This document shows, piece by piece, positions 13,029-49,747 of a stretch of 64,000 nucleotides of DNA; position 1 is the stretch's first letter, and every line of letters begins with the position of its first letter. The stretch lies in the NCBI GenBank assembly GCA_017429695.1, contig JAFROK010000052.1:26030-90029 (forward strand), in the 5' to 3' direction. A model generated the notes under the pieces. The model was not told the origin of the DNA and did not search any database. It worked only from the letters and a program-made list of their open reading frames with translations. The translations under genes were made by a program, and so were the position numbers. Source of the DNA: Clostridia bacterium. Lineage in GTDB: Bacteria > Bacillota > Clostridia > Christensenellales > Aristaeellaceae.

Positions 13029-13047
13029 TGCGTCCGGTGAAAAACAG

Positions 13048-13076
13048 TTGACACATCCGGCAAATAAAGTTACATT
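13048..13076 (+). promoter_or_regulatory. Promoter of the adenine deaminase gene
   Basis: TTGACA (13048-13053), 17 bases, TACATT (13071-13076). A TATAAT at 13116-13121 lies nearer the gene but has no -35 partner at proper distance. The leader between promoter and start is about 90 bases. No riboswitch fold was recognised in it. Confidence 0.6.
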
Positions 13077-13171
13077 ATAACGAGAATATTCGGCGCTATC
13101 ATGACGGAAAAAAGATATAATCCTGCGGGCAGCAGATGGATTTGGCATAAGCAATATACGGAGGGAAAACC

Positions 13172-14881
13172 ATGGAACTGGAGAAATACATTGCCTGTTC
13201 GAAAGCATCCAGAAAACTGATTAAGGCGGACCTGGTGATTAAAAACGCCAGTATTGTCAATGTGTTTACGGACCGGGTCGAGCCGGGGAACATTGCCATC
13301 AAAAACGGCATGATCGTCGGGATCGGAGACGACTACCAGGGGGAAGAAGAACTGGATATCCACGGGCAATATGTAACGAGCGGATTCATCAATGCCCACC
13401 TCCACCTGGAATCCACGATGGTGAACCCGCAGGTGCTGATTGCCCAGGCTGCCATGCATGGAACGACGACTTTTATTGTGGATCCCCATGAGGCGGCGAA
13501 CGTATCCGGAAAGGACGGAATCGACTACATCCTGGACCAGACGAAGTATTCGCCTGCGCATGTTTATGTCATGATCGCTTCCTGCGTTCCCGCCACACCG
13601 ATCGACGACAACGGTTTCCGGCTGACAGCACGGGAAATGGAACCCTATATCAGGAACCGACGGGTACTCGGTCTCGGCGAGGTAATGGATACACAGGCTG
13701 TGATCAACGGAGATCCGGAAATGAATGCCAAGATCCAGCTGTTTGACGGAAAGATCAAAGACGGACATGCGCCTTATCTTTCCCCGGAGGACCTGGCAGC
13801 CTATGTGATGGCCGGTATCACCACCGACCATGAAGGCACGAGCTACGAATACATCATGCGGGAGCGCGCCATGGGCATGTTCTGCCTGATCCGGGAAGGC
13901 AGCGCCGCCAGGAGTCTGGAATCAATCGTCAGGGGCATTGTGGAAAACAATACCAATACGGAAGGATTCGGCTTCTGCACCGATGACCGCCATATCGATG
14001 ATATTATCCGGGAAGGGGATATTGACAACAACGTGCGGAAAGCGGTCAGCATGGGCATCAGCCCGATTGCCGCCATCAAGATGGCGACCATTCAGCCGGC
14101 CCGGTGCTACGGGCTGCGCCGGACCGGGGCGGTGGCTCCGGGCTATGACGCGGACCTGGTTGTATGGGATTCCCTGAAGGATTTCAATGCCCAGATTGTA
14201 TTTTACAACGGCCGCCGGATTGACGATATGCTCCGGATCAAGCCGGCTCCCTGCCCGCCGCAGCTGCTGGACACGATCCGGCTGGCACAGATTGATCCGG
14301 AAAAGCTTGTGATCCGGCCTGGCGACAAGCCGTTCCCTGTGATCCGAATGCTTCCGGGAGAAATACTGACGGAACGGGTTGACATGACACTTCCCGGAAC
14401 AGAAAACGGCGGCGTATTTATTCCGAACGGAGAAGTCAACAAGATTGCCACCTTTGAACGGCACCATTACACAGGGAAAATCGGCGCCGGCGCTGTTGTC
14501 GGATTCGGGATCCGCGGAGGCGCAATCGCCTCATCGGTTTCCCATGACAGCCATAACATTATTGCCATCGGCGACAATGACGAGGATATCCTCCTGGCGG
14601 TGCGGGAACTGGAGAGAACACACGGCGGATATACCGTTGTGGAAAACGGGGAAGTATTCGACACACTGGAGCTTCCGGTGATGGGCCTCATCTCTGACAA
14701 AAGCTACAGCTATGTGAGCAAAAAGGTGCGGCGGATGACATCGAAGGCACATAAGATGGGCGTACCGAAAGATATGGAGCCTTTCATTACGCTGTCCTTT
14801 ATGGCGCTGCCGGTAATTCCCGAGATTCGCTGTACCCCGCGGGGAATCTTCTCTGTTACGGAATGGCGGATGCTGACATAA
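13172..14881 (+). CDS. ade: Adenine deaminase
   Basis: Converts adenine to hypoxanthine and ammonia in the cytoplasm, the entry of adenine into purine breakdown. The metal-dependent amidohydrolase has 569 residues. The HxH-type metal motif is in GFINAHLHLESTMV (about residues 71-84). A further His is in TTFIVDPHEAANVSG, and the C-terminal domain contains SVSHDSHNIIAIGDND, a hallmark of the bacterial AdeC family. ACGGAGGG precedes the ATG. It has its own promoter and opens the purine island. Length matches the family. Confidence 0.95.
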   Translation: MELEKYIACSKASRKLIKADLVIKNASIVNVFTDRVEPGNIAIKNGMIVGIGDDYQGEEELDIHGQYVTSGFINAHLHLESTMVNPQVLIAQAAMHGTTTFIVDPHEAANVSGKDGIDYILDQTKYSPAHVYVMIASCVPATPIDDNGFRLTAREMEPYIRNRRVLGLGEVMDTQAVINGDPEMNAKIQLFDGKIKDGHAPYLSPEDLAAYVMAGITTDHEGTSYEYIMRERAMGMFCLIREGSAARSLESIVRGIVENNTNTEGFGFCTDDRHIDDIIREGDIDNNVRKAVSMGISPIAAIKMATIQPARCYGLRRTGAVAPGYDADLVVWDSLKDFNAQIVFYNGRRIDDMLRIKPAPCPPQLLDTIRLAQIDPEKLVIRPGDKPFPVIRMLPGEILTERVDMTLPGTENGGVFIPNGEVNKIATFERHHYTGKIGAGAVVGFGIRGGAIASSVSHDSHNIIAIGDNDEDILLAVRELERTHGGYTVVENGEVFDTLELPVMGLISDKSYSYVSKKVRRMTSKAHKMGVPKDMEPFITLSFMALPVIPEIRCTPRGIFSVTEWRMLT

Positions 14882-14906
14882 TGATCCGTTTTTGCCTGCC
14901 CTGTAT

Positions 14907-14935
14907 TTGCTTTTCAGTCGATTGTTTTGTATAAT
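14907..14935 (+). promoter_or_regulatory. Promoter of the guanine deaminase transcription unit
   Basis: TTGCTT (14907-14912), 17 bases, TATAAT (14930-14935). The -10 is perfect and the -35 weak. It would drive the guanine deaminase gene and possibly the long set of same-strand genes behind it. Confidence 0.6.
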
Positions 14936-15006: not shown

Positions 15007-16299
15007 ATGTACTTCAATTTGAGCAGAAGTTTCGTAATTAAAGGGCATATATGCCATACACCGGAGGCCGGACGCCTTGAAATACGGGAAAATGCCTTTG
15101 CTGTCTGTGAAGAGGGAATCTGCCGGGGAATTTTCGATGAATTTCCGGAACGCTTCCGGAACCTGGAAATGATTGACTGCAGCGGGGAGCTGATCCTGCC
15201 GGGCATGACGGACCTGCATATCCACGCGCCCCAGTTTGCCTACCGCGGAACCGGTATGGACTATGAGCTGCTGGACTGGCTGGACCAGGTTGCGTTTCCG
15301 GAAGAAAGCCGCTACGCGGACACGGCGTATGCCGAGGCGGCTTACAGGATATTTGCCCGGAAAATGAAGCAGAGCGCCACCACCCGGGCGGTCATCTTCG
15401 GCACCATTCATACGGAATCCACCCTGATCCTGATGAACAAGATGGAAGAAACCGGCCTGGTCAGCTTTGTGGGCAAGGTCAGCATGGACCGGAATTCGCC
15501 TCCGGAACTGACGGAACAGAATGCCCGGGAAGCCGCAAAGGAAGAACGGCGCTTTATTACGGAAAGCATCAAAGCTGGATACCGCAGGACGAAGCCGGTG
15601 GTTACACCCCGGTTTGTGCCCAGCTGTACGCAGGAACTGATGGCAGAGCTGGGGAAGATCCGGCGGGAATACGGTCTTCCGGTTCAGTCCCATCTTTCGG
15701 AGAATCCCGGGGAAATAGAACTGGTTGCAGAGCTGGAACCGGAGGCCGCCTTCTACGGGGACGCCTACGACCGTTACGGTCTGTTCGGCCGGGATGGCAA
15801 CACGGTGATGGCCCACTGCGTATACTCCTCTCCGGAGGAAATACAGAGAATTAAAGCCAACGGGGTATGGGTGGCCCACTGCCCATCCTCCAACATGAAC
15901 ATCGCTTCGGGAATCGCGCCGGTCCGGCGGTACCTGGAGCAGGGAATTCGGATCGGACTGGGGACGGACGTTGCGGGCGGAACATCGGAATCCATGTTCC
16001 GGGCGGTGACGGACGCGATCCAGGTGTCCAAACTGTACTGGCGGCTTGTGGACCGGACGGCTAAGCCCCTGACATTCCCGGAAAGCTTCTACCTGGCGAC
16101 GAAGGGCGGCGGCGCTTTCTTCGGAAAGGCAGGGAGCTTTGAAGAGGGATATGCCTTTGACGCGGTGGTGCTGGACGATTCGGTGGAGCCGAGCGCACGG
16201 CCGCTTCCGGTACGGGACAGGCTTGAACGCGCGTTCTACCTGCAGCTGGACCGGCAGGGAATCACAATGAAAATTGCAGACGGGCAAATCATTATTTAA
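15007..16299 (+). CDS. guaD: Guanine deaminase
   Basis: Hydrolyses guanine to xanthine and ammonia. The amidohydrolase has 430 residues. The metal motif MTDLHIHAPQ lies at about residue 68, followed by FAYRGTGMDYELLDWL, a guanine-deaminase signature. Further ligands are in HCVYSSPEE and in GLGTDVAGG. Ribosome-site spacing to the ATG is short (AAGGGA directly before it). A TTG four codons later would have better spacing, but the ATG keeps the usual family start. Beside adenine deaminase, it lets both purine bases reach the xanthine/hypoxanthine level. Confidence 0.92.
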   Translation: MYFNLSRSFVIKGHICHTPEAGRLEIRENAFAVCEEGICRGIFDEFPERFRNLEMIDCSGELILPGMTDLHIHAPQFAYRGTGMDYELLDWLDQVAFPEESRYADTAYAEAAYRIFARKMKQSATTRAVIFGTIHTESTLILMNKMEETGLVSFVGKVSMDRNSPPELTEQNAREAAKEERRFITESIKAGYRRTKPVVTPRFVPSCTQELMAELGKIRREYGLPVQSHLSENPGEIELVAELEPEAAFYGDAYDRYGLFGRDGNTVMAHCVYSSPEEIQRIKANGVWVAHCPSSNMNIASGIAPVRRYLEQGIRIGLGTDVAGGTSESMFRAVTDAIQVSKLYWRLVDRTAKPLTFPESFYLATKGGGAFFGKAGSFEEGYAFDAVVLDDSVEPSARPLPVRDRLERAFYLQLDRQGITMKIADGQIII

Positions 16300-16328: not shown

Positions 16329-17798
16329 ATGATTAACCTGACAATCAACGAACAGGGAAGAGCCAACAACATTCAGCGGGCCAAGGAACAGCATATCATC
16401 ATTCCGACGATTGCGCAGATGAAGGATCCTCAGACCATTCCGGAAAAGATCCGGGACCAGCTCAGGAACGTGGGCCTGTGGGACGTGAATCCGCTCAATC
16501 TGTTCCGTATCACCTGGAAGAATGAACCGAAGGAATCGGGCGGACTGTTCGGAAAGCCGAACTTCATCGTCCTGCCGCCTGAACTGACGGGCGTCAAGGC
16601 AAAGATTATGCTGATGGTCGGCAAGTATTTTCCGACAGGGTGCCACAAGGTTGGCGCATCCTTCGGCTGCCTTGTGCCGCGGCTGGTGACCGGCCAGTTT
16701 GACTCTTCCATGCACCGGGCCGTATGGCCCTCCACGGGCAATTACTGCCGGGGCGGCGCATTCAATTCCAAACTTCTGAGCTGCCATTCTGTGGCGATTC
16801 TTCCTGAGGGAATGAGCAAGGAACGCTTTGAGTGGCTGAAGACAGTGGCCAGCGAGATTATCGCGACGCCCGGAACCGAATCCAACGTGAAAGAAATCTT
16901 TGACAAGACCCATGAACTGGAACAGGAACCGGACTGCATCATCTTCAACCAGTTCGCTGAAATGGGCAATTATATGTGGCACTATCATGTGACCGGCAAC
17001 GCCATTGCCGAGGCATTCAGGGAGATCAGCGGAGAAGGCGACCAGCTCTTCGGAGCCATATTCACCTCCGGCTCCGCCGGGACCATGGCGGCCGGCGACC
17101 GCATCAAAGACCTGTATCCGAAGGCCAAACTGGGCGTGGGCGAAGCGTTGCAGTGCCCGACGCTGCTGGAGAACGGCTTCGGCGCCCACCGGATCGAGGG
17201 AATCGGGGACAAGCATGTTCCGTGGATTCACAATGTGAAGAACACCGACCTGGTGGTCGATATCGATGACGAGGATTCCCAGAAGGTGCTGCGCCTGTTC
17301 AACGAGCCGGTCGGACGCGAATACCTGAAGAGCGCGGGCGTTCCGGAAGAGACGCTGAACAGCCTGGAACTCTTCGGAATATCCGGTATTGCCAACATGC
17401 TGTGCGCCATCAAGATGGCCAAATATTACGAACTGACCGAGCACGATGTGGTTGCCTCCGTAATGACGGATTCCGCGGTGATGTATGCCTCCCGCGTAAA
17501 GGAACTGCAGGAAGAGGACGGCGCATACACCCGGGAGATGGCAGCTGTTGATTTCCACACCCATATCCTGGGCGAAAAGACCGACAACATGCTGGAGCTG
17601 ACCTATCAGCAGCGGAAACGGGTGCATAACCTGAAATACTATACCTGGGTTGAACAGCAGGGCAAGACTTCCGAGGAACTGCAGAGCCTGTGGTATGACA
17701 CCGCGCATACCTGGGACAGCGTGAAAGCGGACGCGGAAAAGGTGGATGAGCTGATCAACCAGTTCAACGAGGATACCGGACTGCTGAAGAACCTGTAA
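16329..17798 (+). CDS. PLP-dependent fold-type-II enzyme, TrpB/threonine-synthase-like
   Basis: Cytoplasmic PLP enzyme of 489 residues. The lysine likely to bind PLP is about K107 in PTGCHKVGAS. The His-Lys pair resembles TrpB-type enzymes rather than the SLKDR form of cysteine and threonine synthases. The glycine-rich phosphate loop is TSGSAGTMAAG (about 246-256). The N-terminal 90 residues and the C-terminal helical tail (about 400-489) are not familiar to me. AGGAGGG lies 8 bases before the ATG. It is followed after 12 bases by another fold-type-II enzyme. Its place in the purine island suggests beta-elimination of an amino acid end product, such as 2,3-diaminopropionate. That is inference; the substrate is unknown. 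Confidence 0.7.
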   Translation: MINLTINEQGRANNIQRAKEQHIIIPTIAQMKDPQTIPEKIRDQLRNVGLWDVNPLNLFRITWKNEPKESGGLFGKPNFIVLPPELTGVKAKIMLMVGKYFPTGCHKVGASFGCLVPRLVTGQFDSSMHRAVWPSTGNYCRGGAFNSKLLSCHSVAILPEGMSKERFEWLKTVASEIIATPGTESNVKEIFDKTHELEQEPDCIIFNQFAEMGNYMWHYHVTGNAIAEAFREISGEGDQLFGAIFTSGSAGTMAAGDRIKDLYPKAKLGVGEALQCPTLLENGFGAHRIEGIGDKHVPWIHNVKNTDLVVDIDDEDSQKVLRLFNEPVGREYLKSAGVPEETLNSLELFGISGIANMLCAIKMAKYYELTEHDVVASVMTDSAVMYASRVKELQEEDGAYTREMAAVDFHTHILGEKTDNMLELTYQQRKRVHNLKYYTWVEQQGKTSEELQSLWYDTAHTWDSVKADAEKVDELINQFNEDTGLLKNL

Positions 17799-17810: not shown

Positions 17811-19067
17811 ATGGCGCTGCGGAATGTTACGGGGGCAAGGTGCACGATCTGCGGCCGGGTGACTCCCGCTGAACCGGAGACGACCGTATGCCCGCACTGC
17901 GGCGGGATCCTGGACATCGAATATGACTACGACTATATCCGTTCCTGCTTCCGGAAGCAGCCGCTCACGGAGCGGAACGATCCGACCATGTGGCGCTACC
18001 TGGAGCTGCTGCCGGTGGAAGGCCTGGGCACCCGGCCGCGCCTGCGGGTGGGCGGATCTCCCCTGTACCAGGCGGACGCATTGGGAAAAGAACTGGGCAT
18101 CCGGGAGCTTTGGATCAAGGATGACGGGCAGAATCCCACCGCATCACTGAAGGACCGGGCTTCCGCCATGGCTGTGATCAAAGCCGGCGAGGCAGGGAAA
18201 ACCACCATTGCCTGCTCCTCCACGGGCAATGCCGCCAGTTCGCTGGCGGGCAACGCAGCGGCTGCGGGACTGTCCACATTCATCTTTGTTCCTTCCCGGG
18301 CGCCGAAGGGCAAGGTGGCCCAGCTGATGATGTTCGGCGCGACGGTCATCCTGGTGGAAGGAAGCTATGAGGATACCTTCCGGATTTCCGCGGAGGCGAT
18401 TGACCGGTGGGGTTGGTATAACCGGAACGCGGCCATCAATCCCTACCTGATGGAGGGAAAGAAGACGGTTTCGCTGGAGATTGCGGAACAGCTCGGCTTC
18501 AGGATGCCGGATTATGTGGCTGTTTCCGTGGGCGACGGCTGTACCATCGGCGGCGTATGGAAGGGATTCAAAGACCTGTACCAGGCCGGGATGATCGACC
18601 GGCTACCCCGCATCATCAGCGTGCAGGCCAGCGGCTGCTGCCCGATCAATACAGCTGCGGCCGCGGGTACCATGGAATGGGTTCCGCAGGAGGAGAACAC
18701 GCTGGCGGACTCCATTGCGGTCGGTGTACCACGGAATCCTGTCAAGGCCCTGCGGGCGATCAGCGAATCAAACGGCGTAATTGTGAATGTCAGCGATGAG
18801 GAGATCATGGCGGCCATGCGGCTGCTCGGCAGACGGGCGGGCGTCTTTGCGGAACCGGCCGGTGCCGCCGGTACGGCAGGCGTCAAAAAAGCCATTGAGA
18901 CCGGGCTGATCGAAAAGGATGCGTCGGTGGTGTCCATCGTGACCGGGAACGGCCTGAAGGACGTCAACAACGCGATCCGGGCTGCCGGGGAACCGATGAG
19001 CATCCGGCCGGAACTGGACGCGCTGCTGGAGGCGTTTGAGGCGCGGGACATCAAAATACCGGAATAA
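17811..19067 (+). CDS. Threonine-synthase-like PLP enzyme
   Basis: Fold-type-II PLP enzyme of 418 residues. An N-terminal zinc ribbon (C11, C14, C27, C30) precedes the catalytic domain. The PLP lysine is about K114 in TASLKDRAS and the phosphate loop is STGNAASSLAG. GNGLKDVNN near the C-terminus is common in threonine synthases. Classical threonine synthase makes threonine from O-phosphohomoserine. Here, without other threonine genes and beside purine genes, a different beta-replacement or elimination reaction is plausible. AAGGAGG precedes the ATG. Confidence 0.75.
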   Translation: MALRNVTGARCTICGRVTPAEPETTVCPHCGGILDIEYDYDYIRSCFRKQPLTERNDPTMWRYLELLPVEGLGTRPRLRVGGSPLYQADALGKELGIRELWIKDDGQNPTASLKDRASAMAVIKAGEAGKTTIACSSTGNAASSLAGNAAAAGLSTFIFVPSRAPKGKVAQLMMFGATVILVEGSYEDTFRISAEAIDRWGWYNRNAAINPYLMEGKKTVSLEIAEQLGFRMPDYVAVSVGDGCTIGGVWKGFKDLYQAGMIDRLPRIISVQASGCCPINTAAAAGTMEWVPQEENTLADSIAVGVPRNPVKALRAISESNGVIVNVSDEEIMAAMRLLGRRAGVFAEPAGAAGTAGVKKAIETGLIEKDASVVSIVTGNGLKDVNNAIRAAGEPMSIRPELDALLEAFEARDIKIPE

Positions 19068-19128: not shown

Positions 19129-21414
19129 GTGTATACGGGACAGAGTATCAAAAGGGTAGACGCCCTGGACAAAGTGACCGGGCGGACCAAGTATACGGAC
19201 GACCTGTGCGACCGGAAGGCATATATTGCCAGGGTACTGCATTCCACCATTGCCAACGGGAAGGTGCTGTCCTTTGACCTGTCCGAAGCAGAGAAGGTGC
19301 CAGGCGTGGTGAAAATCCTGACCTGCTTTGACGTGAAGGAGAAACATTATTTTCCGACGGCCGGGCATCCCTGGTCCACGGATCCGGGACACCAGGATGT
19401 GGCGGACCGGCTGGTGCTGACGGACCGGGTGCTCTTCTACGGGGACGATATCGCCGCCGTGGTGGCGGAGGATGAGGTTGCTGCTGCCCAGGCCCTGCGG
19501 CTGATCCGGGTGGAATATGAGGAATACCCGTTTGTGCTGGATGTGCAGAAGGCCATGGAAGACGGGGCGCCCCTGCTGCATGAGAATTATCCCAATAATA
19601 TCCTGAAGCATACCACGATCCGGAACGGCGACTATGAAAAAGCCATTCAGGAACCGGGCCTGATAAAGGTCGAAGGCTGGTATGAAACGCCGGTGGTGCA
19701 GCACTGCCACATTGAAAACTTCATCTGCTTTGCCGAAAAAGAGGGCGAGCGGATCACAGTGGTCAGTTCCACCCAGATACCGCATATTGTGCGCCGGATC
19801 GTCGGACAGGCGCTCGGCACCGGCTGGGGAAATATCCGGGTAATCAAGCCTTATATTGGCGGCGGATTCGGCAACAAACAGGATATCCTGTATGAACCGC
19901 TGTGCGCCTGGCTGAGCCTGCAGGTCGGCGGACACCTGGTGAAGCTGGACGTTCCCCGGGAGGAAACCTTCGTCTGTAACCGGACGCGGCACTCCATCCG
20001 CAACCATATTATCTCCTGGGTGCGGCCTGACGGGACCTATGCGGCCCGGAAACTGGAAGCATTTTCCGACCAGGGCGCATATGCGTCCCACGGACACAGC
20101 ATCTGCGCCAAAGGCGCCGGCGCTTTCCCGCAGCTTTATCCCTGTCCTAACGTGGAGGTGGACGCCTATACAGTGTTTACCAACAAACCGGTGGCAGGCG
20201 CTATGCGGGGCTACGGCATTCCCCAGTCCATGTGGGCGGTGGAGTCCCACACGGAGGATGTGTGCGCGGCCATCGGCGCGGATCCGATTGAATTCCGCCG
20301 GCGCAACCTGATGCCGGTGGGCTATACGGACGGATTCTCCAAAAACGAGAACTATTTCGATTCCTTCAACCAGTGCCTGGACAAGGCCATGAAGGCGATT
20401 GATTACGAGCGGAAATACAAGGAGTACCAGAACCAGACGGGAGATATCCGCCGGGGGATCGGTGTGGCGGTATTCTGGTACAACACAGCGGTATGGCCCA
20501 TCTCGCTGGAATCCACATCCTGCCGGATGGTGCTGAACCAGGACGGGTCTTTCCAGCTGCAGCTGGGAGAAACCGAGATCGGCCAGGGAGCGGACACGGC
20601 CTTTGCCCAGATGGCAGCTGATGTGGTCGGCGTTCCGGTTGAAAAGGTTCATGTGGTTTCCTGCCAGGATACGGACGTGACACCTTTCGGCACCAGCGCC
20701 TATGCATCGCGGCAGACTTATGTGGCCGGATTTTCCATCCGGCAGACGGGCCTGCAGCTGAAGGAAAAGATCCTGGATTATGCCCACCTGCTGACCCGGA
20801 TGCCAGCGTTCAACCTGGATATCCGGGAGGGAAATATCGTCCGCATTCCGGACGGGCGGGTGCTGATGAACCTGGAAGAGCTGGCGACCGAAGCGCTGTA
20901 CAGCCTGGATAACAGCCGGCATATTACGGCAGAGAGCACCTACCAGGTGAAGTCCAACGCCTACTCCTTCGGCTGCACCATTGCCGAGGTGGAAGTGGAC
21001 ATTCCGATGTGCCGCGCAAAGCTGCTTAACATTGTCAACTGCCATGACGCGGGCAAACTGATCAATCCCGCCCTGGCCGAGGCCCAGGTGCACGGCGGCA
21101 TGAGCATGGGCATCGGTTTCGGACTGAGCGAGAAACTGATGTTTGACGAAAAGACGGGACGGCCGCTGAACAACAACCTGCTTGACTATAAACTATCCAC
21201 ATTCCTGGACCATCCGACGCTGAAAGCCGAATTTGTGGAAAACGCCGAACCGACCAGCGCATTCGGGACGAAAGGCCTGGGCGAACCGCCGGCCTGCTCT
21301 CCCGCGCCGGCGATCCGGAACGCGATCTACCATGCCACGGGCGTAGGCGTGAAGAACGCGCCGGCAAATCCGCACAACCTGTTCAAGGCGTTCTCCGAAG
21401 CAGGGCTGATTTAA
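19129..21414 (+). CDS. xdhA: Molybdenum hydroxylase, molybdopterin-binding large subunit (XdhA type)
   Basis: Catalytic subunit of a xanthine-dehydrogenase family enzyme, 761 residues. GTG at 19129 is chosen since AAGGGAG lies 8 bases upstream and the domain begins at once (VYTGQSIKRVDALDKVTG). Cofactor motifs are GGGFGNKQD (about residue 243), GAMRGYG (about 360), EIGQGADT (about 484) and the catalytic Glu in KGLGEPPACS (about 716). Known members hydroxylate purines such as hypoxanthine or xanthine. The FAD and iron-sulfur subunits follow directly, and the SelD/YqeB/YqeC neighbours point to a selenium-dependent form. The exact substrate is not readable from sequence. Confidence 0.88.
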   Translation: MYTGQSIKRVDALDKVTGRTKYTDDLCDRKAYIARVLHSTIANGKVLSFDLSEAEKVPGVVKILTCFDVKEKHYFPTAGHPWSTDPGHQDVADRLVLTDRVLFYGDDIAAVVAEDEVAAAQALRLIRVEYEEYPFVLDVQKAMEDGAPLLHENYPNNILKHTTIRNGDYEKAIQEPGLIKVEGWYETPVVQHCHIENFICFAEKEGERITVVSSTQIPHIVRRIVGQALGTGWGNIRVIKPYIGGGFGNKQDILYEPLCAWLSLQVGGHLVKLDVPREETFVCNRTRHSIRNHIISWVRPDGTYAARKLEAFSDQGAYASHGHSICAKGAGAFPQLYPCPNVEVDAYTVFTNKPVAGAMRGYGIPQSMWAVESHTEDVCAAIGADPIEFRRRNLMPVGYTDGFSKNENYFDSFNQCLDKAMKAIDYERKYKEYQNQTGDIRRGIGVAVFWYNTAVWPISLESTSCRMVLNQDGSFQLQLGETEIGQGADTAFAQMAADVVGVPVEKVHVVSCQDTDVTPFGTSAYASRQTYVAGFSIRQTGLQLKEKILDYAHLLTRMPAFNLDIREGNIVRIPDGRVLMNLEELATEALYSLDNSRHITAESTYQVKSNAYSFGCTIAEVEVDIPMCRAKLLNIVNCHDAGKLINPALAEAQVHGGMSMGIGFGLSEKLMFDEKTGRPLNNNLLDYKLSTFLDHPTLKAEFVENAEPTSAFGTKGLGEPPACSPAPAIRNAIYHATGVGVKNAPANPHNLFKAFSEAGLI

Positions 21415-22798: not shown

Positions 22799-22815
22799 AA
22801 AAAGAGGTGGATAAG

Positions 22816-27310: not shown

Positions 27311-27366
27311 CCTGAATGTGGAAAGAACAGAGTGACAGATATCAGTCAGAAGGGAGAAATATCAGT

Positions 27367-38693: not shown

Positions 38694-38743
38694 CCTGATA
38701 TCCGGGATTATCTGTATTATAGAGCATGAGGAGCGATCAGTCC

Positions 38744-40839: not shown

Positions 40840-40842
40840 GAT

Positions 40843-41844: not shown

Positions 41845-42336
41845 ATGAAGTTTACCCATTTTGACCCGGGCGGCGGTGCCTGGATGGTGGACGTGAGCGA
41901 AAAGGAAGACACCCGGCGGGAGGCGACAGCAGAGGGCCTGATCCGCATGAGCCGAGAATGCTTTGACCTGGTTGCGGCGGGAAACATGGAAAAAGGAGAT
42001 GTGCTGGGTACGGCCAGGATTGCCGGCATCATGGGCGCAAAAAAAACGCCGGACCTGATCCCACTGTGCCACATCCTGAACCTGACCGGGGTATCTGTCC
42101 GCTTTGAAATGCTGAAGGATGAACCTGCCATCCGTGCGGTATGTACTGTGCGGACCGTCGGAAAAACAGGGGCAGAAATGGAAGCACTGACGGGCGTCAG
42201 CTGTGCACTGCTGGCGATTTATGATATGTGCAAGGCCGTGGACAAAACGATGGAAATCGGCGGGATCATGCTGGCGGAAAAGAGCGGCGGAAAAAGCGGG
42301 AACTTTATCAATCCAAATGCAAACCGGAGAGGGTGA
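41845..42336 (+). CDS. moaC: Cyclic pyranopterin monophosphate synthase
   Basis: Second enzyme of molybdopterin synthesis, 163 residues, usual length. Family stretches are MVDVSEKEDTRREA, AGIMGAKKTPDLIPLCH, GAEMEALTGVSCALLAIYD and the catalytic-lysine region MCKAVDKTM. GGACAGGGAG precedes the ATG. It lies between moaA and a MOSC-MogA fusion in one operon. Confidence 0.96.
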   Translation: MKFTHFDPGGGAWMVDVSEKEDTRREATAEGLIRMSRECFDLVAAGNMEKGDVLGTARIAGIMGAKKTPDLIPLCHILNLTGVSVRFEMLKDEPAIRAVCTVRTVGKTGAEMEALTGVSCALLAIYDMCKAVDKTMEIGGIMLAEKSGGKSGNFINPNANRRG

Positions 42337-43307: not shown

Positions 43308-43376
43308 TGATGGGTGTTATACCGCTTTTCTGGACAGGAAATCTGAAAACGAAAACAAAAAAAGGAGGATTTGGAA

Positions 43377-44216
43377 ATGAATATCAAAAGAACGGTGGCT
43401 TTTGTACTGGCGGGATTGATGATGGTGATGGCCTGCATGGCTTCGGCGGAGGCGCCGAAAACAGAAGTGGTTGTATTCGCGGCAGCTTCGCTGACGGAAA
43501 CCCTGACGGCGATTGAAGCGCTGTATGAGGAGGAAAACCCGGATATTGACCTGATTTTCAGCTTTGATTCCTCCGGCACCCTGAAGACCCAGATCCAGGA
43601 AGGCGCCGTGTGCGACGTGTTCATTTCCGCCGCACAGAAGCAGATGAACCAGCTGGATATTACTGCGGGCGAAGAAAAGAATCCGGACGGACTGGACTAT
43701 GTGCTGGAAGGAAGCCGGATCGACCTGCTGGAGAACAAGGTGGCGCTGGTGACCCCGGAAGACAATCCGAAAGGAATTGACAGCTTTGACACCCTGGCGG
43801 AGATGCTTAAGGACGCCGGCAATTTCCTGATGGCCATGGGCAATTCCGATGTGCCGGTCGGACAGTATACCCAAAAAATCCTCGCCTTCTATGGACTGGA
43901 CGAGGCGGAACTGGCAAAGGCCGGTAAAATTACCTATGGCACCAACGTCAAAGAAGTGACCACCCAGGTGGTGGAAGGAAGCGTGGACTGCGGTGTGGTT
44001 TACGCGACTGACGCATTCAGCGCCGGGCTGGGCGTGATCGATACGGCGACCATGGAAATGTGCGGCCAGGTGATTTATCCCGCGGCTGTGATGAAGAACA
44101 GCACTGTTCCGGAAGCGGCACAGGCGTTCCTGGATTATCTCCGGGACGAGGAAGCGGCAAAGATTTTTGAAAGCGTCGGATTTACAGCCATTCCGGCAGA
44201 AATACCTGAAACATGA
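43377..44216 (+). CDS. modA: Molybdate ABC transporter binding protein
   Basis: Extracellular molybdate-binding protein, 279 residues. The signal peptide ends near ACMASAEA. Molybdate-family motifs are VVVFAAASLTETLTAIE (about 28-44), FSFDSSGTLKTQI with the Ser ligands, and CDVFISAAQKQM. The ATG at 43377 has AAAGGAGG eight bases upstream; a TTG two codons earlier is less likely. It supplies molybdenum for the hydroxylases. The stop overlaps modB (ATGA). Confidence 0.94.
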   Translation: MNIKRTVAFVLAGLMMVMACMASAEAPKTEVVVFAAASLTETLTAIEALYEEENPDIDLIFSFDSSGTLKTQIQEGAVCDVFISAAQKQMNQLDITAGEEKNPDGLDYVLEGSRIDLLENKVALVTPEDNPKGIDSFDTLAEMLKDAGNFLMAMGNSDVPVGQYTQKILAFYGLDEAELAKAGKITYGTNVKEVTTQVVEGSVDCGVVYATDAFSAGLGVIDTATMEMCGQVIYPAAVMKNSTVPEAAQAFLDYLRDEEAAKIFESVGFTAIPAEIPET

Positions 44217-44896
44217 ACGACATGGATCTGTTTCCGCTTTACAATTCATTGCGGATCGCCGCGGCCAGCAGCGTGATTGTGTTTTTCGCGGGCATCTTTG
44301 CTGCTTATAAAGTGGCAAAGATGCCCCGCATCGTCAAAGGCATCCTGGACGTCATCCTGACGCTGCCGATGGTGCTGCCGCCGACGGTATGCGGCTATTT
44401 CCTGCTGCTCCTTTTCGGGAGACGCCGGCCGCTGGGCATGTTTCTGGAAGATCTGGGAATTAAACTGGTGATGAACTGGCCGGGCGGAATTTCGGCGGCT
44501 GTGGTGGTATCTTTTCCGCTGATGTACCGGACGGCCCGGGGGGCTTTTGAAAGCTTTGACCGGGACCTGGCCTGGGCCGGGCAGACACTGGGACTTTCCA
44601 ACACCTGGATCTTCTGGCGGGTGCGGATGCGCACCTGCCGCCAGGGAATACTGGCCGGAATTGTGCTCGCCTTTGCCCGGGCGCTGGGTGAATACGGCGC
44701 GACCAGTATGCTGATCGGTTATACGCCGGGAAGGACTGCAACGGTATCGACCACGGTATATCAACTCTGGCGGACCAACGATGAAAGCGGCGCTTTCTTC
44801 TGGGTGATGGTCAACCTGGCCATTTCAGCGGTCGTGCTGCTGGCGGTGAACCTGCTGGAGAAGCGGAACAGGAGTACAAAATGGCGCTTGAAGTAG
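44213..44896 (+). CDS. modB: Molybdate ABC transporter permease
   Basis: Membrane subunit of the molybdate importer, 227 residues, with five or so membrane segments. The EAA-type loop lies in LAWAGQTLGLSNTWIFWRV (about residue 120). TLPMVLPPTVCGYFLLLLFG is typical of ModB. It starts in an ATGA overlap with modA and ends inside the start of modC. Confidence 0.95.
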   Translation: MNDMDLFPLYNSLRIAAASSVIVFFAGIFAAYKVAKMPRIVKGILDVILTLPMVLPPTVCGYFLLLLFGRRRPLGMFLEDLGIKLVMNWPGGISAAVVVSFPLMYRTARGAFESFDRDLAWAGQTLGLSNTWIFWRVRMRTCRQGILAGIVLAFARALGEYGATSMLIGYTPGRTATVSTTVYQLWRTNDESGAFFWVMVNLAISAVVLLAVNLLEKRNRSTKWRLK

Positions 44897-45924
44897 ATAT
44901 TGAGAAACAGCTGGGACCATTCCACCTCCGGGCTGCTTTTTCCTGCGAAAGTGGTTTTACGGGAATTCTCGGCGCCTCCGGCAGCGGGAAAAGCATGACG
45001 CTGAAATGCATTGCCGGCATTGAGAAGCCGGACAGGGGAAGCATTGTGCTGGACGGCAGGGTGCTGTTTGACTCCGAAAAAAAGATCAACCTGCCGCCCC
45101 AGAAGCGGCATGTCGGATACCTGTTTCAGCATTACGCGCTTTTTCCGGGTATGACGGTGCGGCAGAATATCATGTGCGGGCTCCATGATGTTAAAGACAG
45201 GCAGGAGCGGGAAGCACAGGCGGATGCGATGATGGACATGCTGCAGATCCGGGATATTGCCTCCCTGCGGCCTGAAGCACTCTCCGGCGGCCAGGCCCAG
45301 CGGACAGCCCTGGGCAGGATCCTGGTGAACAAACCAGACCTGCTGATGCTGGACGAGCCTTTTTCCGCGTTGGATACGCATCTGCGGCTGAAGCTGCAGG
45401 CGGAACTGAAGGAACTGCTGGGCGGATACGGCAAGGGAATCATTATGGTCACCCATGACCGGGACGAGGCGTACCGCATGTGCGACCGGCTGGGTATCAT
45501 GGACCGGGGACAGATGCAGGCCGTGAAGGAAAAGAAAGAAATGTTTGCAGAACCTGAAACCCGGGCTGCCGCTTTGCTGACGGGATGCAAGAACATTGCG
45601 GAAGCCCGGAAAACGGGGGAACGTGAGGTTTATGTACCCGCATGGAATATTCACCTGAAAACCCGGGAAACCGTCCGGGACGGCCTGCAGGCTGTCGGGA
45701 TCCGGGCACACAGTTTCCGGCCCGATGAGAAGGACAATGCTTATCCCGTGCAGATAATACGGGAAACGGAAGAACCTTTTGAATGGATCGGCGAATTCAG
45801 ATTTGACGGCCAGGCTCCGGACACCGCGCCTGTCTGGTGGCGGTATCCGAAAGAGCTCAGGCAGAAAAAACCGCCGAAGAAACTTGGCGTTCCTCCGGCC
45901 GATGTGCTACTGCTTTATGAATAG
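44881..45924 (+). CDS. modC: Molybdate ABC transporter ATPase
   Basis: ATP-binding subunit, 347 residues. Walker A is GASGSGKSM (about 34-42), the signature LSGGQAQRTALGR (about 137) and Walker B LLMLDEPFSALD (about 159), with the switch His in VTHDRDEAYRM. The C-terminal part (about 230-347) is shorter than usual, with a TOBE-like stretch. It overlaps modB by 16 bases and ends only 10 bases from the convergent selenium-carrier operon. Confidence 0.95.
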   Translation: MALEVDIEKQLGPFHLRAAFSCESGFTGILGASGSGKSMTLKCIAGIEKPDRGSIVLDGRVLFDSEKKINLPPQKRHVGYLFQHYALFPGMTVRQNIMCGLHDVKDRQEREAQADAMMDMLQIRDIASLRPEALSGGQAQRTALGRILVNKPDLLMLDEPFSALDTHLRLKLQAELKELLGGYGKGIIMVTHDRDEAYRMCDRLGIMDRGQMQAVKEKKEMFAEPETRAAALLTGCKNIAEARKTGEREVYVPAWNIHLKTRETVRDGLQAVGIRAHSFRPDEKDNAYPVQIIRETEEPFEWIGEFRFDGQAPDTAPVWWRYPKELRQKKPPKKLGVPPADVLLLYE

Positions 45925-45934: not shown

Positions 45935-46171
45935 TCAGAAATATGAATACAGAATCCGGTAGCCGTCAGCCTGCTCCAGCGCGATCTGCTCCGTTTCCTC
46001 GGTGCGCGGAATCATTTCGGCGTCCGGCGCCTCAATCCGGACACAGGTTCCGCAGCTACTGCTGAGCTTTCGGGGAACCGGCATCATCCTGGCGGGCATA
46101 CCGGCCTGGTCGCACAGCTTTTTGCAGTGCATTGCCCCAAAATGGGAAAAGAACGTAGCAATGTAAATCAT
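45935..46171 (-). CDS. DUF3343 small protein, putative Se/S carrier
   Basis: Protein of 78 residues, last gene of a three-gene minus-strand operon. It begins MIYIATFFSHFGAMHCKKLC and carries a Cys pair in SSSCGTCVRIEA. Such proteins are often found beside TusA/YedF-like genes and selenium or molybdenum hydroxylase clusters. A sulfur or selenium carrier role is suggested by context, not shown. Its start overlaps the stop of the TusA-like gene. Confidence 0.8.
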   Translation of the reverse strand: MIYIATFFSHFGAMHCKKLCDQAGMPARMMPVPRKLSSSCGTCVRIEAPDAEMIPRTEETEQIALEQADGYRILYSYF

Positions 46172-46374
46172 TTTGTGATCTTCAGCGTGAATTCCCTGTC
46201 TGATTCGGTGACGGATACGGTATATCCCTGGTGCTCCGCATACCGGGTTACGTTTTCCCGGGAAACCCTGTTGTCCACTTTGATTTCGTATTCACTGTCC
46301 CCGCTCTTCATGGCCTGGCTGATCATGATGACCGGTTCAGGACAGGAAAGGCCGCACGCATCCAGTTTTGTCAT
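46168..46374 (-). CDS. TusA/YedF-like sulfur (selenium) carrier protein
   Basis: TusA-fold protein of 68 residues. The Cys-Pro-x-Pro motif is CGLSCPEPVI with the active Cys at C11. Only the TusA-like domain of YedF is present. It probably carries sulfur or selenium as a persulfide or selenosulfide, between the desulfurase-like enzyme at 47667 and SelD or the hydroxylases. Minus strand, between the YedE-like transporter and the DUF3343 gene. Confidence 0.87.
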   Translation of the reverse strand: MTKLDACGLSCPEPVIMISQAMKSGDSEYEIKVDNRVSRENVTRYAEHQGYTVSVTESDREFTLKITK

Positions 46375-46409
46375 AATGGTTATCTCCTTTGCTTTGATGA
46401 TCCGGACGA

Positions 46410-46438
46410 CTGACAGGGAACCCTGTCAGCCTTTTTTT
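46410..46438 (+). terminator. Plus-strand intrinsic terminator inside the minus-strand operon
   Basis: CTGACAGG (46410-46417) pairs with CCTGTCAG (46422-46429) over a 4-base loop, followed by CC and seven T on the + strand. It overlaps the stop of the YedE-like gene. On the minus strand no U-run follows, so it should stop + strand transcription coming from modABC, about 490 bases past modC. Confidence 0.75.
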
Positions 46439-47517
46439 CTGTTGGAACGGATGTTGCATTCACCGATGATGATCACGATGACCAGGCCGATGATCACCGC
46501 AATCTTGCCTGCATCCGTCGGGCCCTTTGCGCTGGAAGCCAGACCGAAATTATGCGCGAAAGCGGCGCCGAGCAGGAGGCCGATCACAGTGATGGCACTG
46601 TCCGAATTGCCTTCGCCGGCAAGCACCAGCTGGCGGAGCGGACAGCCACCCAGCAGCACGCAGGCAAAACCGACGAGGAGCATTCCGAGCGCATTCCAGA
46701 GCCCATCCATATGGGCAACTGCCTGGCCCTCAAAAGCCAGTTTGAAATAGGTTCCGTCCGTCGTTGCGGTAAGGATCAGGTTGGTGACCAGCGCGGCAAG
46801 GAAGATGGCGACAAATCCCAGCAGGAGTTTGAATTCCTTAAACAGGATTGCATCACGGATGCCGCCTACCATGCAGAGACGGGTCCGCTGTGCCAGTGCG
46901 CCGACGATCAGGCCGGCCAGGAGGCTGATCCAGACAGCCGCATGTTTTGCGCCGGGGCCGGCACCCGCTTCTGAGAAGATCAGCAGGGAAGGAACGGCCA
47001 GCAGAATCACCAGCAGGGCCACGGTGGTTGCGGGGAAAGCGGCGCCTTCGGATGCGGGCAGCCGGTAGGTACGCTTCAGGGAATAGCCTCGTTTCAGGTA
47101 CAGGATACCACAACCGATACCGGCTGCAAAGCCGACCAGGCCGAGGATCGCATTCAGATCACCGCCGGCCAGGCGGAGAATCATCCGGAAGGGACAGCCG
47201 AGGAACATCAGGCAGCCGATCATGGCAAAAAAACCCAGAATCAGGCGCGTCATGGGAGAACTGCCGCCCCGCGGGGAAAATTCTTTCTTTGCAAGGGACA
47301 GAAGAAAACTTCCCAGGACAATGCCGATGATTTCCGGGCGGACATACTGAACGGCGGCCGCCTTATGAAGCCCCAGCGAACCGGCGGTATCGCGGATAAA
47401 GCAGGCGATACAGAATCCCATGTTGGCGGGATTGCCGAGAAGAACCAGGACGGACGCGATGACGCCGATGATCAGCCCGGCAAGGATGATGTACCATTTT
47501 TCCTTTGACATTTTCAC
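46426..47517 (-). CDS. yedE: YedE-family (YeeE/YedE) selenium-linked membrane transporter
   Basis: Polytopic membrane protein of 363 residues with about ten hydrophobic segments. Conserved cysteines lie in GFCIACFIRDTAGSLG, MFLGCPFRMILRLAGGD, QRTRLCMVGGIRD and LLGGCPLRQLVLAGEG, the repeat marks of the YedE/YeeE family. It is thought to move sulfur or selenium compounds across the membrane. GTG at 47517 is chosen, as GGGAG lies 8 bases before it; ATG at 47532 precedes that site and ATG at 47511 is also possible. It heads the minus-strand operon divergent from the desulfurase-like gene. Confidence 0.88.
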   Translation of the reverse strand: MKMSKEKWYIILAGLIIGVIASVLVLLGNPANMGFCIACFIRDTAGSLGLHKAAAVQYVRPEIIGIVLGSFLLSLAKKEFSPRGGSSPMTRLILGFFAMIGCLMFLGCPFRMILRLAGGDLNAILGLVGFAAGIGCGILYLKRGYSLKRTYRLPASEGAAFPATTVALLVILLAVPSLLIFSEAGAGPGAKHAAVWISLLAGLIVGALAQRTRLCMVGGIRDAILFKEFKLLLGFVAIFLAALVTNLILTATTDGTYFKLAFEGQAVAHMDGLWNALGMLLVGFACVLLGGCPLRQLVLAGEGNSDSAITVIGLLLGAAFAHNFGLASSAKGPTDAGKIAVIIGLVIVIIIGECNIRSNRKKG

Positions 47518-47616
47518 AGTGATCACTCCCATAATGATATATGCGGAATATCAGTTTCCTGATTGAATACAGAATACCATCGACGGGCGGACAAGTCTAA
47601 TATCATTTATCAGGAT

Positions 47617-47644
47617 TTGATTTCGATTTATTATGTGGTATAAT
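47617..47644 (+). promoter_or_regulatory. Promoter of the desulfurase-like/LysR unit
   Basis: TTGATT (47617-47622), 16 bases, then TGG and TATAAT (47639-47644), an extended -10. It lies in the divergent region shared with the YedE-like gene, a natural place for control by the LysR protein encoded downstream. Confidence 0.75.
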
Positions 47645-47666
47645 AAAAGCGGAGAGTGATATCAGC

Positions 47667-48857
47667 ATGCAGAAAATATACCTGGACCAGGCCAGCACCA
47701 GTTTTCCGAAAGCACCCGGCACTGCGGAAGCGGTATATCGGTATATGACGGACTGCGGATGCAATGTGGGCCGCGGCGGATACGCAGGCGCCTATTCCGC
47801 GGAGGAACTGGTCTATGATACGCGGGCCTTGATCTGCCGGATGTTCGGCGGTTCAGGCGGGACCATCCAGCCGAAAAACGTCCTGTTTACGAAAAACGTC
47901 ACTGAAAGCCTCAATATCCTGATCAAAGGCCTTCTCCGGCCGGGAGACCATGTGCTTGTCTCCTCCATGGAGCATAACGCCGTGATGCGGCCGCTGGTTC
48001 AGATGGAAAAGCAGGGGATCCGTTTTACACGGGTGCCGTGTGCAGAAGACGGGACGATGGATCCAGCTGAAGCGGAGGCCCGGATCGAAGCGCAGACAAA
48101 GGCATTTATTATGCTGCATGCCAGCAACGTATGCGGAACGGTGCTGCCGGCTGCGGAAATCGGCGCGCTCTGTCGCGCACATGGGATCTGTTTTATCCTG
48201 GATACAGCCCAGACGGCCGGGGTACTGCCTTTGGATATGGAAGCTATGCATATCGATGCACTCGCCTTCACAGGGCACAAAGGCCTGCTGGGACCACAGG
48301 GAACAGGGGGATTCCTGATCCGGGATGAACTGATCGGGGAAATGGAACCGCTGATTGCCGGCGGTACCGGCAGCATCAGCCATACGGAAGACATTCCGGA
48401 TTTCCTGCCGGACCGGTTTGAAGCAGGAACGCTGAACCTGCCCGGGATTGCGGGGCTTCATGCATCGGTTGAATGGCTTCTGGCCCAGCCGGAGGGATCG
48501 ATATTCGCACATGAAAAGCGCCTGACGGAGCATTTTCTTTCCGGACTGAAACCGCTGGAAGACGGCGGGATGCTCCGGATTGTCGGGAAGCACGATACGG
48601 AACAGCGGACCAGCGTCGTATCGGTTGTTCCGCTCCATTCGGATCCGGCGGAAGTGGCATTCCGCCTGGACGAAAAGTACGGAATCGCGACGCGGGTAGG
48701 GCTGCACTGTGCACCTTCAGCCCACAGGACGCTGAGAACATTTCCGACGGGAACGATCCGGTTTTCTTTCGGATATGCCAATACAGAAAGCGAAGCGGAT
48801 GCGGCAGTGACGGCACTGAAGGCGCTGTGCTGCCCGGAAAGGAAGACATGGAACTGA
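47667..48857 (+). CDS. Class V aminotransferase, cysteine desulfurase/selenocysteine-lyase-like
   Basis: PLP enzyme of 396 residues. PLP-site features are [40 protein letters not shown] and the Schiff-base lysine about K205 in [13 protein letters not shown] Cys near the C-terminus ([12 protein letters not shown]) takes the place of the active-site Cys. The family is a regular companion of selenium-dependent molybdenum hydroxylases and may supply selenium or sulfur from cysteine or selenocysteine. The ATG has GGAGAG upstream. Its last bases overlap the LysR gene. Confidence 0.9.
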
Positions 48858-49747
48858 AACACCTGATTTCATACGCCACTGTGGTCCGGCTGGGGAGCTT
48901 CAGCCGGGCTGCTGAAGAACTGTATATTGCCCAGCCGACCATCAGCCTGCATATCCGGCAGCTGGAGGAAGAACTGGGAACCCAGTTGCTGGTCCGGACA
49001 ACCAAAAGTATTGAAATGACCGAAAAAGGGCGGGAAGTATACGAATGCGCCGTCAGCATTCTCCAGCTCAGGGACCGGATTGCAGAAAAGTGCTCGGGCG
49101 GAGAAAGACGGATTATCCGCCTCTGCGCATCTACGATCCCGTCCGCCTATATCCTGCCGGAAGTACTGCCGGCATATGTAAAAAACCATCCTGAGACCTA
49201 TTTTACCATTGACCAGGGGGACAGCCGTTCTGTGACGGAAAAGGTGGCGGAAGGCCTTACGGATATCGGCCTTGTGGGAATGAAACCCGCCTCATCCGAT
49301 ATTACGGCCGAGCCGTTTTATGAAGATTCCGTTGTGATTATTACCCCGGTACGGGAGCCGTTCCTGACCATGAAGGAACAGCATTCCGCTACACTGGAAA
49401 AACTGTTTGAGCAGCCGGTGATCCTGCGCGAAAAGGGGAGCGGAAGCCTGAAGGCCGCCGATACATTCCTGGCCAATGCCGGATATTCCGGAAGCGATCT
49501 CCATGTTGCCGCGCGGACGAATGACCCGGAAGCCATCAAGAATCTTGTCGTGAGCGGACTCGGCATTTCTATGATTTCATCCAAAGCAGCGGAGGATTAC
49601 AGCCGGGAGAACCGCCTGCTTGTATTCTCGTTTCCGGAAATATCCAGCCGCCGTCAGTTCTACATTTTGAAGCGAAAGAAGACTGTTTTACCGGAATGTG
49701 TCAGGGATTTTGTGCAATATCTCAGACAGTTTTACAGCAAAAAATGA
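48848..49747 (+). CDS. LysR-family transcriptional regulator
   Basis: Regulator of 299 residues. The N-terminal helix-turn-helix is at about 15-60 ([20 protein letters not shown]). The effector-binding domain follows from about 90 to 290. ATG at 48848 is chosen, with GGAAAGGAAG upstream; it overlaps the end of the desulfurase-like gene. As last gene of the island next to the divergent promoter at 47617, it may control selenium carriers or purine genes. Effector unknown; the effector domain resembles CysB/CysL-like members only in general. Confidence 0.9.

Follow-up and report, generated by a model that had tools for sequence, protein, structure and literature searches.

A selenium- and molybdenum-linked purine-degradation island in which two PLP-dependent enzymes probably stand in for YgeX

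Here, we analyse a purine-degradation island in a 64,000-nucleotide window (contig C50, positions 26030-90029) of the genome of a Clostridia bacterium (3.03 Mb in 60 contigs, 88% complete), and propose that two enzymes dependent on pyridoxal phosphate (PLP), here called PLPa and PLPb, probably do together what YgeX, the 2,3-diaminopropionate ammonia-lyase, does in published clusters of this kind. By NCBIfam and Pfam scans, the stretch 13172-49747 holds 31 genes, 28 on the forward strand and 3 (yqeC, a YedF-like gene and a YedE-type transporter gene) on the reverse strand, with intergenic gaps that are mostly below 100 bases. An earlier note, made from the letters of the window, had placed a complete island of about 27 genes here. 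Strong family matches bear out the series and its position, as they do the claim that purine catabolism, molybdenum uptake, cofactor synthesis, selenium activation (selD, yqeB, yqeC, YedE/YedF) and regulators share one segment. The count was too low, and "complete" goes too far, since canonical YgeX was not found and two other PLP enzymes stand in the cluster. Strong NCBIfam matches include those of YgfK, the selenium-dependent xanthine dehydrogenase (XDH; model Se_dep_XDH), XdhA, YgeW, YgeY and SsnA. The catabolic part of the island reads as follows (score pairs are match bits/curated cut-off bits):

13172-14881, + strand: ade, adenine deaminase (TIGR01178, 520/472)
15007-16299, + strand: guaD, guanine deaminase-like amidohydrolase (TIGR02967, 343 bits, under the cut-off of 375)
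16329-17798, + strand: PLPa (P0001, 489 residues), divergent fold-type-II PLP enzyme (CysK 78 bits; PF00291 34/35)
17811-19067, + strand: PLPb (P0002, 418 residues), threonine-synthase-like PLP enzyme (NF006050, 312/303)
19132-21414 (start approximate, reading frame opens at 19036), + strand: xdhA, molybdenum-binding subunit of XdhABC (NF043082, 1195 bits)
21427-22314, + strand: xdhB, FAD subunit (NF043083, 430 bits)
22319-22798 (start approximate, reading frame opens at 22283), + strand: xdhC, 2Fe-2S subunit (NF043084, 250 bits)
22807-24141, + strand: ssnA, ring-opening aminohydrolase (TIGR03314, 563/455)
24160-27150, + strand: ygfK, flavoenzyme of reductive dearomatisation (TIGR03315, 1321/835)
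27151-27315, + strand: ygfK-ygeY gap, where the relatives G778, G761, G723 and G679 have ygeX, by their gene order
27316-28746, + strand: ygeY, M20 ureido hydrolase (TIGR03526, 618/321)
28762-29961, + strand: ygeW, carbamoyltransferase (TIGR03316, 787/500)
30032-30970, + strand: arcC, carbamate kinase (TIGR00746, 388/358)
30999-33578, + strand: selenium-dependent XDH with fused iron-sulfur and molybdenum domains, candidate urate to 2,8-dioxopurine reductase (TIGR03311, 1240/830; Pfam domains)
33659-35047, + strand: hyuA, D-hydantoinase type (TIGR02033, 519/393)

In the reductive urate pathway, as set out in the parts of the literature cited here, urate is converted to 2,8-dioxopurine, YgfK carries out a reduction, SsnA and HyuA open the rings, YgeW and YgeY remove the ureido groups, and YgeX cleaves 2,3-diaminopropionate to pyruvate and ammonia (PMC12507026; PMC12990295). 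Escherichia coli YgeX accepts both diaminopropionate enantiomers (PMC12507026), and it is stated to be an open question in which order and with what stereochemistry the last ureido steps run (PMC12990295). On their family matches, the catabolic genes of the island are this published set minus YgeX. SsnA, YgfK, HyuA, YgeW and YgeY are all over cut-off. For the molybdenum hydroxylase that takes urate to 2,8-dioxopurine (XdhD or XdhAC type in the published clusters), the island has the fused iron-sulfur/molybdenum Se_dep_XDH protein, whose substrate is indistinguishable from sequence. The genes selD, yqeB and yqeC, which are tied to selenium-dependent molybdenum hydroxylases (PMC2276186; PMC11448449), lie over cut-off beside the molybdenum hydroxylase genes. 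YgeX is the member not found in the island or elsewhere in the 88% complete genome, where the best match to its model, TIGR03528, is PLPb at 40.7 bits against a cut-off of 532.25. We looked for the defining YgeX without finding it and therefore class the island, which as such is of a known kind, as a variant of the reductive urate cluster and not as a plain member.

The cluster of E. coli K-12 (ygeW-ygeX-ygeY-hyuA-yqeA ... ygfK-ssnA-ygfM-xdhD) has SsnA, YgfK, HyuA, YgeW, YgeY and carbamate kinase in common with the island, which differs in having PLPa and PLPb with no YgeX found, a fused selenium-dependent XDH in place of XdhD-YgfM, and molybdenum uptake, MoaA/MoaC and SelD in the same segment. 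The Enterococcus faecalis region EF2563-EF2582 likewise unites a molybdenum hydroxylase, EF_2570, with yqeB, yqeC, ygeW, ygeY, ygfK and ssnA; unlike the island it has YgeX (EF_2579), and its published gene table lists neither PLPa nor PLPb (PMC2276186). EF2570 is described as a selenium-dependent XDH (PMC11448449). The uricolytic genes of C. difficile follow the same SsnA, HyuA and YgeY logic and the same selenium dependence (PMC12507026; PMC11448449), but there UacX and UacY replace YgfK and YgeW, and YgeX is kept, whereas the island keeps YgfK and YgeW and appears to have YgeX replaced.

The PLPa-PLPb pair stands between guaD and xdhA. Both proteins are, like YgeX, fold-type-II PLP enzymes, which we would place at the same point of the pathway, and both differ from it in having threonine at the place of YgeX Asp120 in every aligned row (28 for PLPa, 9 for PLPb). 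PLPa has a core resembling CysK and cystathionine beta-synthase, with a conserved C-terminal extension of its own. Its best models are weak (CysK, 78 bits; PF00291, 34 against 35), no Pfam or NCBIfam model is over cut-off, its 8 NCBIfam matches at E 0.001 do not include TIGR03528, and in the PDB its profile finds cysteine synthases and, at 83 bits, cystathionine beta-synthase. Lys107 of PLPa is invariant (28/28 rows), as is the PLPb lysine at the Schiff-base place (9/9). PLPb, which begins with an N-terminal four-cysteine ribbon, passes threonine synthase cut-offs (NF006050, 312/303; TIGR00260, 214/167), scores 256 bits with PF00291 and reaches 67/276 with the diaminopropionate ammonia-lyase model NF006058. 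Profile comparison to YgeX gives 98.7% for PLPb (E 1.8e-16) and 45.9% for PLPa. The idea that PLPb is a housekeeping threonine synthase only was dropped, because a second threonine synthase over cut-off (235 bits) lies on contig C40 of the source genome and PLPb is thus not its only one.

Nine relatives were compared with the window, over up to 40 kb each. Three genomes of the same genus (G731, G786, G619) have most of the island, with 70-99% protein identity in the catabolic core; they share the order xdhC-PLPa-PLPb-ssnA, their pair is 92-95% identical to that of the window, and no YgeX was found in the genome. A fourth, G778, carries ygfK-ygeX-ygeY in an otherwise similar island, with no PLPa-PLPb in the 40 kb read. 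The ygeX gene also stands between ygfK and ygeY in the family members G761, G723 and G679, and beside ygfK at a contig end in G667. By this gene order, ygeX and PLPa-PLPb replace one another in otherwise similar islands, and the pair has moved as a unit. That most of the series recurs in these four genomes of the genus, in much the same order and with a catabolic core 70-99% identical at the protein level, makes it more than a chance arrangement. All four keep it in one segment; the scattering in close relatives that the earlier note had named as a refutation was not seen in them. Some supporting genes vary: ade was not seen beside the G619 island, no MoCF, moaA, moaC or MOSC gene was seen in that of G786, and in that of G731 these four as well as an XdhC-like and a modE gene were not seen. 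The closest copies of the pair among the matches listed (87% and 90%) belong to a goat rumen Clostridia metagenome-assembled genome (MAG; L096), where the order is xdhC-like, PLPa, PLPb, guaD; since this order differs, the pair seems to shuffle within such islands. In a maximum-likelihood SsnA tree with 41 proteins, at least 7 changes are needed by parsimony to explain the presence or absence of YgeX; when just the well-supported branches are considered, the minimum is 4 for the group with YgeX alone and 6 for the group with PLPa and PLPb. Gain and loss are indistinguishable in these counts.

Co-occurrence was counted in samples of 248 genomes from the order, 293 from the class (at least 90% completeness asked, source genome included) and 300 from the family. 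In the order sample, where a PLPa orthologue was called at 625 bits or more (next match 76 bits), PLPa is present in 18 of the 20 genomes with SsnA and in 0 of the 228 without it (Fisher p 1.8e-25, uncorrected for kinship). YgeX at E 1e-50 is present in six of the 20; another 13 have PLPb, and these are all of the SsnA genomes that are PLPa-positive and YgeX-negative. One further genome (G169, L080), whose SsnA sits on a long branch, has none of YgeX, PLPa and PLPb detected, suggesting either a third pathway ending or a decayed pathway. The class sample holds 16 genomes with SsnA and 5 with PLPa (the source genome, G337, G395, G411 and G315); of its 15 other SsnA genomes, 12 have YgeX without PLPa and 3 have PLPa and PLPb without YgeX. 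In two YgeX genomes, G522 and G345, matches to PLPb of 35% and 31% were counted as other threonine-synthase-like genes. SsnA occurs in 26 of the 300 family genomes, 19 with YgeX (17 over cut-off, 2 as fragments at contig ends) and 7, the source included, without it, all seven carrying PLPa and PLPb. Across the 60 distinct SsnA genomes, YgeX is present in 37 (5 of them with PLPa), PLPa and PLPb without YgeX in 22, and neither in 1; YgeX and PLPb were found together in 0 of the 60 (PLPb searched genome-wide in 36; Fisher p 1.6e-15, again uncorrected for kinship). PLPb was seen only alongside PLPa, in 22 of 22 SsnA genomes and in G315. In the last, an 18-kb contig (G315:C10, L286) holds PLPb-ygeY-ygeW-PLPa together and SsnA was not found in the genome, which may reflect a gap in the assembly or a genome that uses just the lower half of the pathway.

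The YgeX proteins found together with PLPa are themselves unusual. In all five such genomes (loci L086, L087, L088, L091, L094) YgeX keeps Lys77, Asp120 and Asp189 but has changed at 11 positions that are each at least 93% fixed in 45 YgeX proteins, among them Phe71, Thr119, Gln188, Trp192 and Tyr195, so that the motif VQDTAW becomes V/I[L/P/A]DT[A/S][S/G/E]. The five genomes form one supported group on the SsnA tree, and their YgeX scores 447-518 bits, against 595-665 in the 13 order- and class-sample SsnA genomes that have YgeX without PLPa. Score as a mark of this subtype was weakened by some SsnA-negative genomes that fall under the cut-off yet have the canonical motif; the motif changes were used instead. 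The divergent YgeX fits a partner with a changed substrate or stereoisomer where PLPa is present. PLPa alone as the replacement for YgeX was dropped, given its coexistence with divergent YgeX in 5 of the 20 order-sample SsnA genomes. In crystal-structure work, the use of both enantiomers by YgeX is explained by two bases, Lys77 and Asp120; Asp189, considered as a possible stereochemical marker, is kept in all copies and we draw no conclusion from it.

A PLPa scan of genome contigs beyond the order confirmed at least 594 relatives, of which the best 80 were taken as loci (L096-L175). They include Clostridia-type organisms, Treponema, Acetomicrobium, Synergistaceae, Pyramidobacter, Halanaerobium, Chloroflexi/Anaerolineae and one deltaproteobacterial MAG. 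The pair stands together in Treponema, Synergistota-type organisms, Halanaerobium and Chloroflexi, several times beside ygeY- or hyuA-like genes. By tblastn, the neighbours of PLPa in these 80 loci are PLPb (60), ygeW (33), ygeY (33), arcC (26), hyuA (16), ygfK (10), ssnA (9) and ygeX (5), some neighbour matches being weak (26-33% identity). Among the 46 of the 80 loci that span at least 15 kb, 35 have one or more of eight pathway genes, 31 of them at 40% identity or more. A YheO-type PAS/HTH regulator cluster is the commonest additional neighbour, in 28 of the 80 loci and within 5 kb of PLPa in 27 of them (one member checked, PF08348 and PF13309); it may regulate the pair. Six of the 80 have an NCS2 nucleobase permease in the vicinity of PLPa (one member checked), which favours the link to the purine pathway; by eye, pgi-, FtsW-, GNAT- and TIM-barrel-like neighbours recur in 5-8. 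Several neighbour clusters resembled antisense artefacts.

In light of these data, how might the island work? Adenine and guanine would be deaminated first, and XdhABC and the fused selenium-dependent hydroxylase would interconvert hypoxanthine, xanthine, urate and 2,8-dioxopurine. YgfK would then reduce the ring system, SsnA and HyuA would open the two rings, YgeW and carbamate kinase would turn one carbamoyl group into ATP, and YgeY would remove the second ureido group to leave 2,3-diaminopropionate, these upstream steps resting on homology to enzymes characterised elsewhere. PLPa and PLPb, instead of YgeX alone, would take diaminopropionate to pyruvate and ammonia. This joint replacement is the reading we consider probable. 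The substitution for YgeX is argued from genome evidence, in which PLPb looks like the counterpart of YgeX and PLPa like its companion; how the two divide the work we infer. Since threonine replaces Asp120, on the two-base mechanism each enzyme would be expected to be stereospecific, which would explain why two are needed. Most likely, PLPb would be an ammonia-lyase specific for the L form and PLPa would handle or racemise the other enantiomer, PLPa as a racemase and PLPa as a D-specific lyase being equally plausible. Whether such a two-enzyme ending extends to several phyla, with PLPa passing diaminopropionate, by stereochemical or chemical conversion, to PLPb or to a re-tooled YgeX, seems to us evenly balanced.

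Several observations weigh against a joint replacement. PLPa coexists with a divergent YgeX in five SsnA genomes (G004, G021, G048, G070, G147), so that it cannot simply be one half of a substitute; outside the order, 12 of the 15 class-sample SsnA genomes are without PLPa; and G315 has PLPa and PLPb with no SsnA found. In family f10 of the order, 9 of 12 genomes have PLPa and ssnA on separate contigs, and the neighbours of PLPa in the f10 genomes examined look unrelated to the pathway. Among the best 80 loci, 11 of the 46 that span at least 15 kb lack all eight pathway genes, three (L104, L105, L155) combine a canonical-motif YgeX with PLPa and PLPb, and L121 and L147 have a canonical-motif YgeX with PLPa within the stretch covered. 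Eight loci (L098, L101, L107, L129, L130, L146, L147, L155) have serC (phosphoserine transaminase, in 7) or a serA-like, phosphoglycerate-dehydrogenase-like gene (in 6) near PLPa, one of each having been checked with NCBIfam. The presence and absence counts come from related genomes, and the genome-wide PLPb search covered 36 of them. In the 19 YgeX-positive family genomes, PLPa was sought near ssnA in six, and PLPb through weak TIGR03528 matches; of three that were examined, two match PLPb at 31-32% and one does not match it. Lastly, threonine or serine at the Asp120-equivalent place is common among related enzymes, which weakens the Asp120 argument; serine racemase has a hydroxyl residue there, as do non-racemases.

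One alternative, which we consider unlikely, is that PLPb alone is a diverged and sufficient diaminopropionate ammonia-lyase, with PLPa an accessory of another role. It would account for the mutual exclusion of PLPb and YgeX in the 60 SsnA genomes while PLPa accompanies both, for the far closer profile tie of PLPb than of PLPa to YgeX, for the weak NF006058 match of PLPb, and for four f10 genomes (G010, G099, G223, G234) where PLPb adjoins ssnA and PLPa lies on another contig. It sits badly with PLPb never being seen without PLPa in the 22 SsnA genomes, with PLPa not being found where an SsnA genome has canonical YgeX (12 genomes of the class sample, 1 of the order sample), and with a pair that, in the islands read from its own genus, is present or absent as a unit. 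That the end reaction itself differs strikes us as improbable. In such a scheme PLPa might, for example, exchange the beta-amino group of diaminopropionate, or in phosphoserine the phosphate, for sulfide or a different nucleophile; the product would be processed by PLPb or by the divergent YgeX, and a serine or cysteine pool could be fed instead of pyruvate being formed directly. The closest solved relatives of PLPa, the cysteine synthases and cystathionine beta-synthases, point that way, as do the changed positions of the YgeX beside it and the serC and serA-like neighbours, which may link the pair to the metabolism of serine or cysteine; yet 72 of the 80 loci show no such neighbour in the stretch covered, and the divergence of YgeX fits a changed stereospecificity equally.

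We think it very unlikely that the pair lies outside the purine route, for example in sulfur or selenium amino-acid chemistry for the molybdenum hydroxylases, with an unrecognised enzyme disposing of diaminopropionate. The long loci devoid of pathway genes, four more whose matches are all below 40% identity, and the f10 genomes in which PLPa stands alone would suit this idea, but PLPa is confined to SsnA genomes in the order sample, the pair swaps with ygeX in similar islands, and ygeW and ygeY each recur near PLPa in 33 of the 80 loci. A further proposal concerns origin and is compatible with any of these readings: that the island arrived recently as a mobile element. The earlier note had called it possibly transferable. 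Indirect support comes from the patchiness of SsnA in the genus, where 5 sampled genomes have it and at least 20 do not. No mobile-element gene occurs among the genes scanned (a subset of the open reading frames of the window), and the GC content of the island (0.571) is within the spread of the genome (0.541, standard deviation 0.048, in 5-kb pieces from 290 kb), so that horizontal transfer argued from composition was dropped. G731 has retained xpt, bmp-like and degV genes on the right side of its island, which suits an old presence with repeated loss as well; recent acquisition we consider unlikely.

If PLPa and PLPb do jointly replace YgeX, many anaerobes (Oscillospiraceae and rumen records are among the best 80 loci) own a complete route that a YgeX-based survey would miss or, through the PF00291 domain, would count as YgeX. 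This matters because gut-bacterial reductive urate degradation influences host urate (PMC12507026) and the recognition of such degraders leans on YgeX and its neighbours. The pair is easily overlooked, PLPb reading as a threonine synthase and PLPa as a cysteine synthase. The published SsnA-neighbourhood network defines YgeX as PF00291 in its figure legend (PMC12507026); because PLPb matches PF00291 and PLPa is just under cut-off, a PLPb neighbour would be coloured as YgeX there and PLPa would not appear. Our literature search, whose reach did not extend to the 2023 discovery papers (Kasahara, Liu) or the 2025 Liu paper, found no description of PLPa or PLPb with this pathway. The replacement of YgeX by the pair would be the new point, the kind of gene cluster being already known. 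Two enzyme families are named in the process, PLPa being without a model over cut-off in Pfam or NCBIfam, and they could help to resolve the dispute over the sequence of the final ureido steps and their stereochemistry.

The remainder of the island is devoted to cofactor supply, selenium, molybdenum uptake and regulation, SelD, YqeB, the LysR regulator and ModB being among the further strong NCBIfam matches:

35037-35663 (start approximate), + strand: mocA/ygfJ-like nucleotidyltransferase (TIGR03310, 93 bits, under the cut-off of 186; PF12804, 94 bits)
35763-36143, + strand: ModE-type N-terminal regulator domain (TIGR00637, 68 bits, under the cut-off of 98.5)
36149-37192, + strand: selD, selenophosphate synthetase (TIGR00476, 397/125)
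37189-38004, + strand: yqeB, selenium-cofactor protein (TIGR03309, 356/220)
37977-38693, - strand: yqeC, selenium-cofactor protein (TIGR03172, 133/73)
38726-39760, + strand: XdhC/CoxI-family maturation factor of molybdenum hydroxylases (PF13478, PF02625)
39811-40839, + strand: molybdopterin-binding (MoCF) protein (PF00994, 86 bits)
40843-41817, + strand: moaA (TIGR02666, 332/284)
41845-42336, + strand: moaC (TIGR00581, 196/141)
42330-43289 (start approximate), + strand: MOSC and MoaB/MogA fusion (PF03473, PF00994)
43371-44216, + strand: modA (TIGR01256, 121/62)
44213-44896, + strand: modB (TIGR02141, 197/183)
44881-45924, + strand: modC-type ABC ATPase adjoining modAB (TIGR02142, 207 bits, under the cut-off of 285)
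46168-46386 (start approximate), - strand: YedF-like sulfurtransferase domain (TIGR03527, 55 bits, under the cut-off of 110)
46426-47532, - strand: YedE-type putative selenium transporter (TIGR04112, 501/200)
47667-48857, + strand: cysteine desulfurase or SclA-like PLP enzyme (TIGR01977, 431/377; SclA model 403, under 525)
48827-49747, + strand: LysR regulator of the selenium-metabolism family (NF040786, 299/250)

Opposite the YedF-like and YedE genes, a + strand open reading frame (46127-46750) has no family match. To the right of the island lie:

50536-51132, + strand: xpt, xanthine phosphoribosyltransferase (NF006671, 229/177)
51187-56389, + strand: four genes of Bmp/PnrA-type ABC uptake, probably nucleoside or purine import (PF02608, an ABC ATPase and two PF02653 permeases)

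The stretch 50536-56389 is thus a probable purine salvage and uptake block, through which the purine-related functions seem to extend right to 56389. On the left, an arabinosylfuranosidase gene precedes the island, and a protein of 837 residues encoded at 3689-6202 (+ strand) matches DUF5696 (539 bits). Two + strand open reading frames beside the island, 49863-50480 (205 residues) and 57661-58704 (347 residues), match no Pfam or NCBIfam family; the former has a 34% match near the island of the same-genus genome G619 (L294). YgeY has 476 residues, its matched part being about 40 residues longer than the TIGR03526 model. At the right edge of the window (63863-64000, + strand) stand tandem tRNA genes, tRNA-Met and a second that is cut by the window end.

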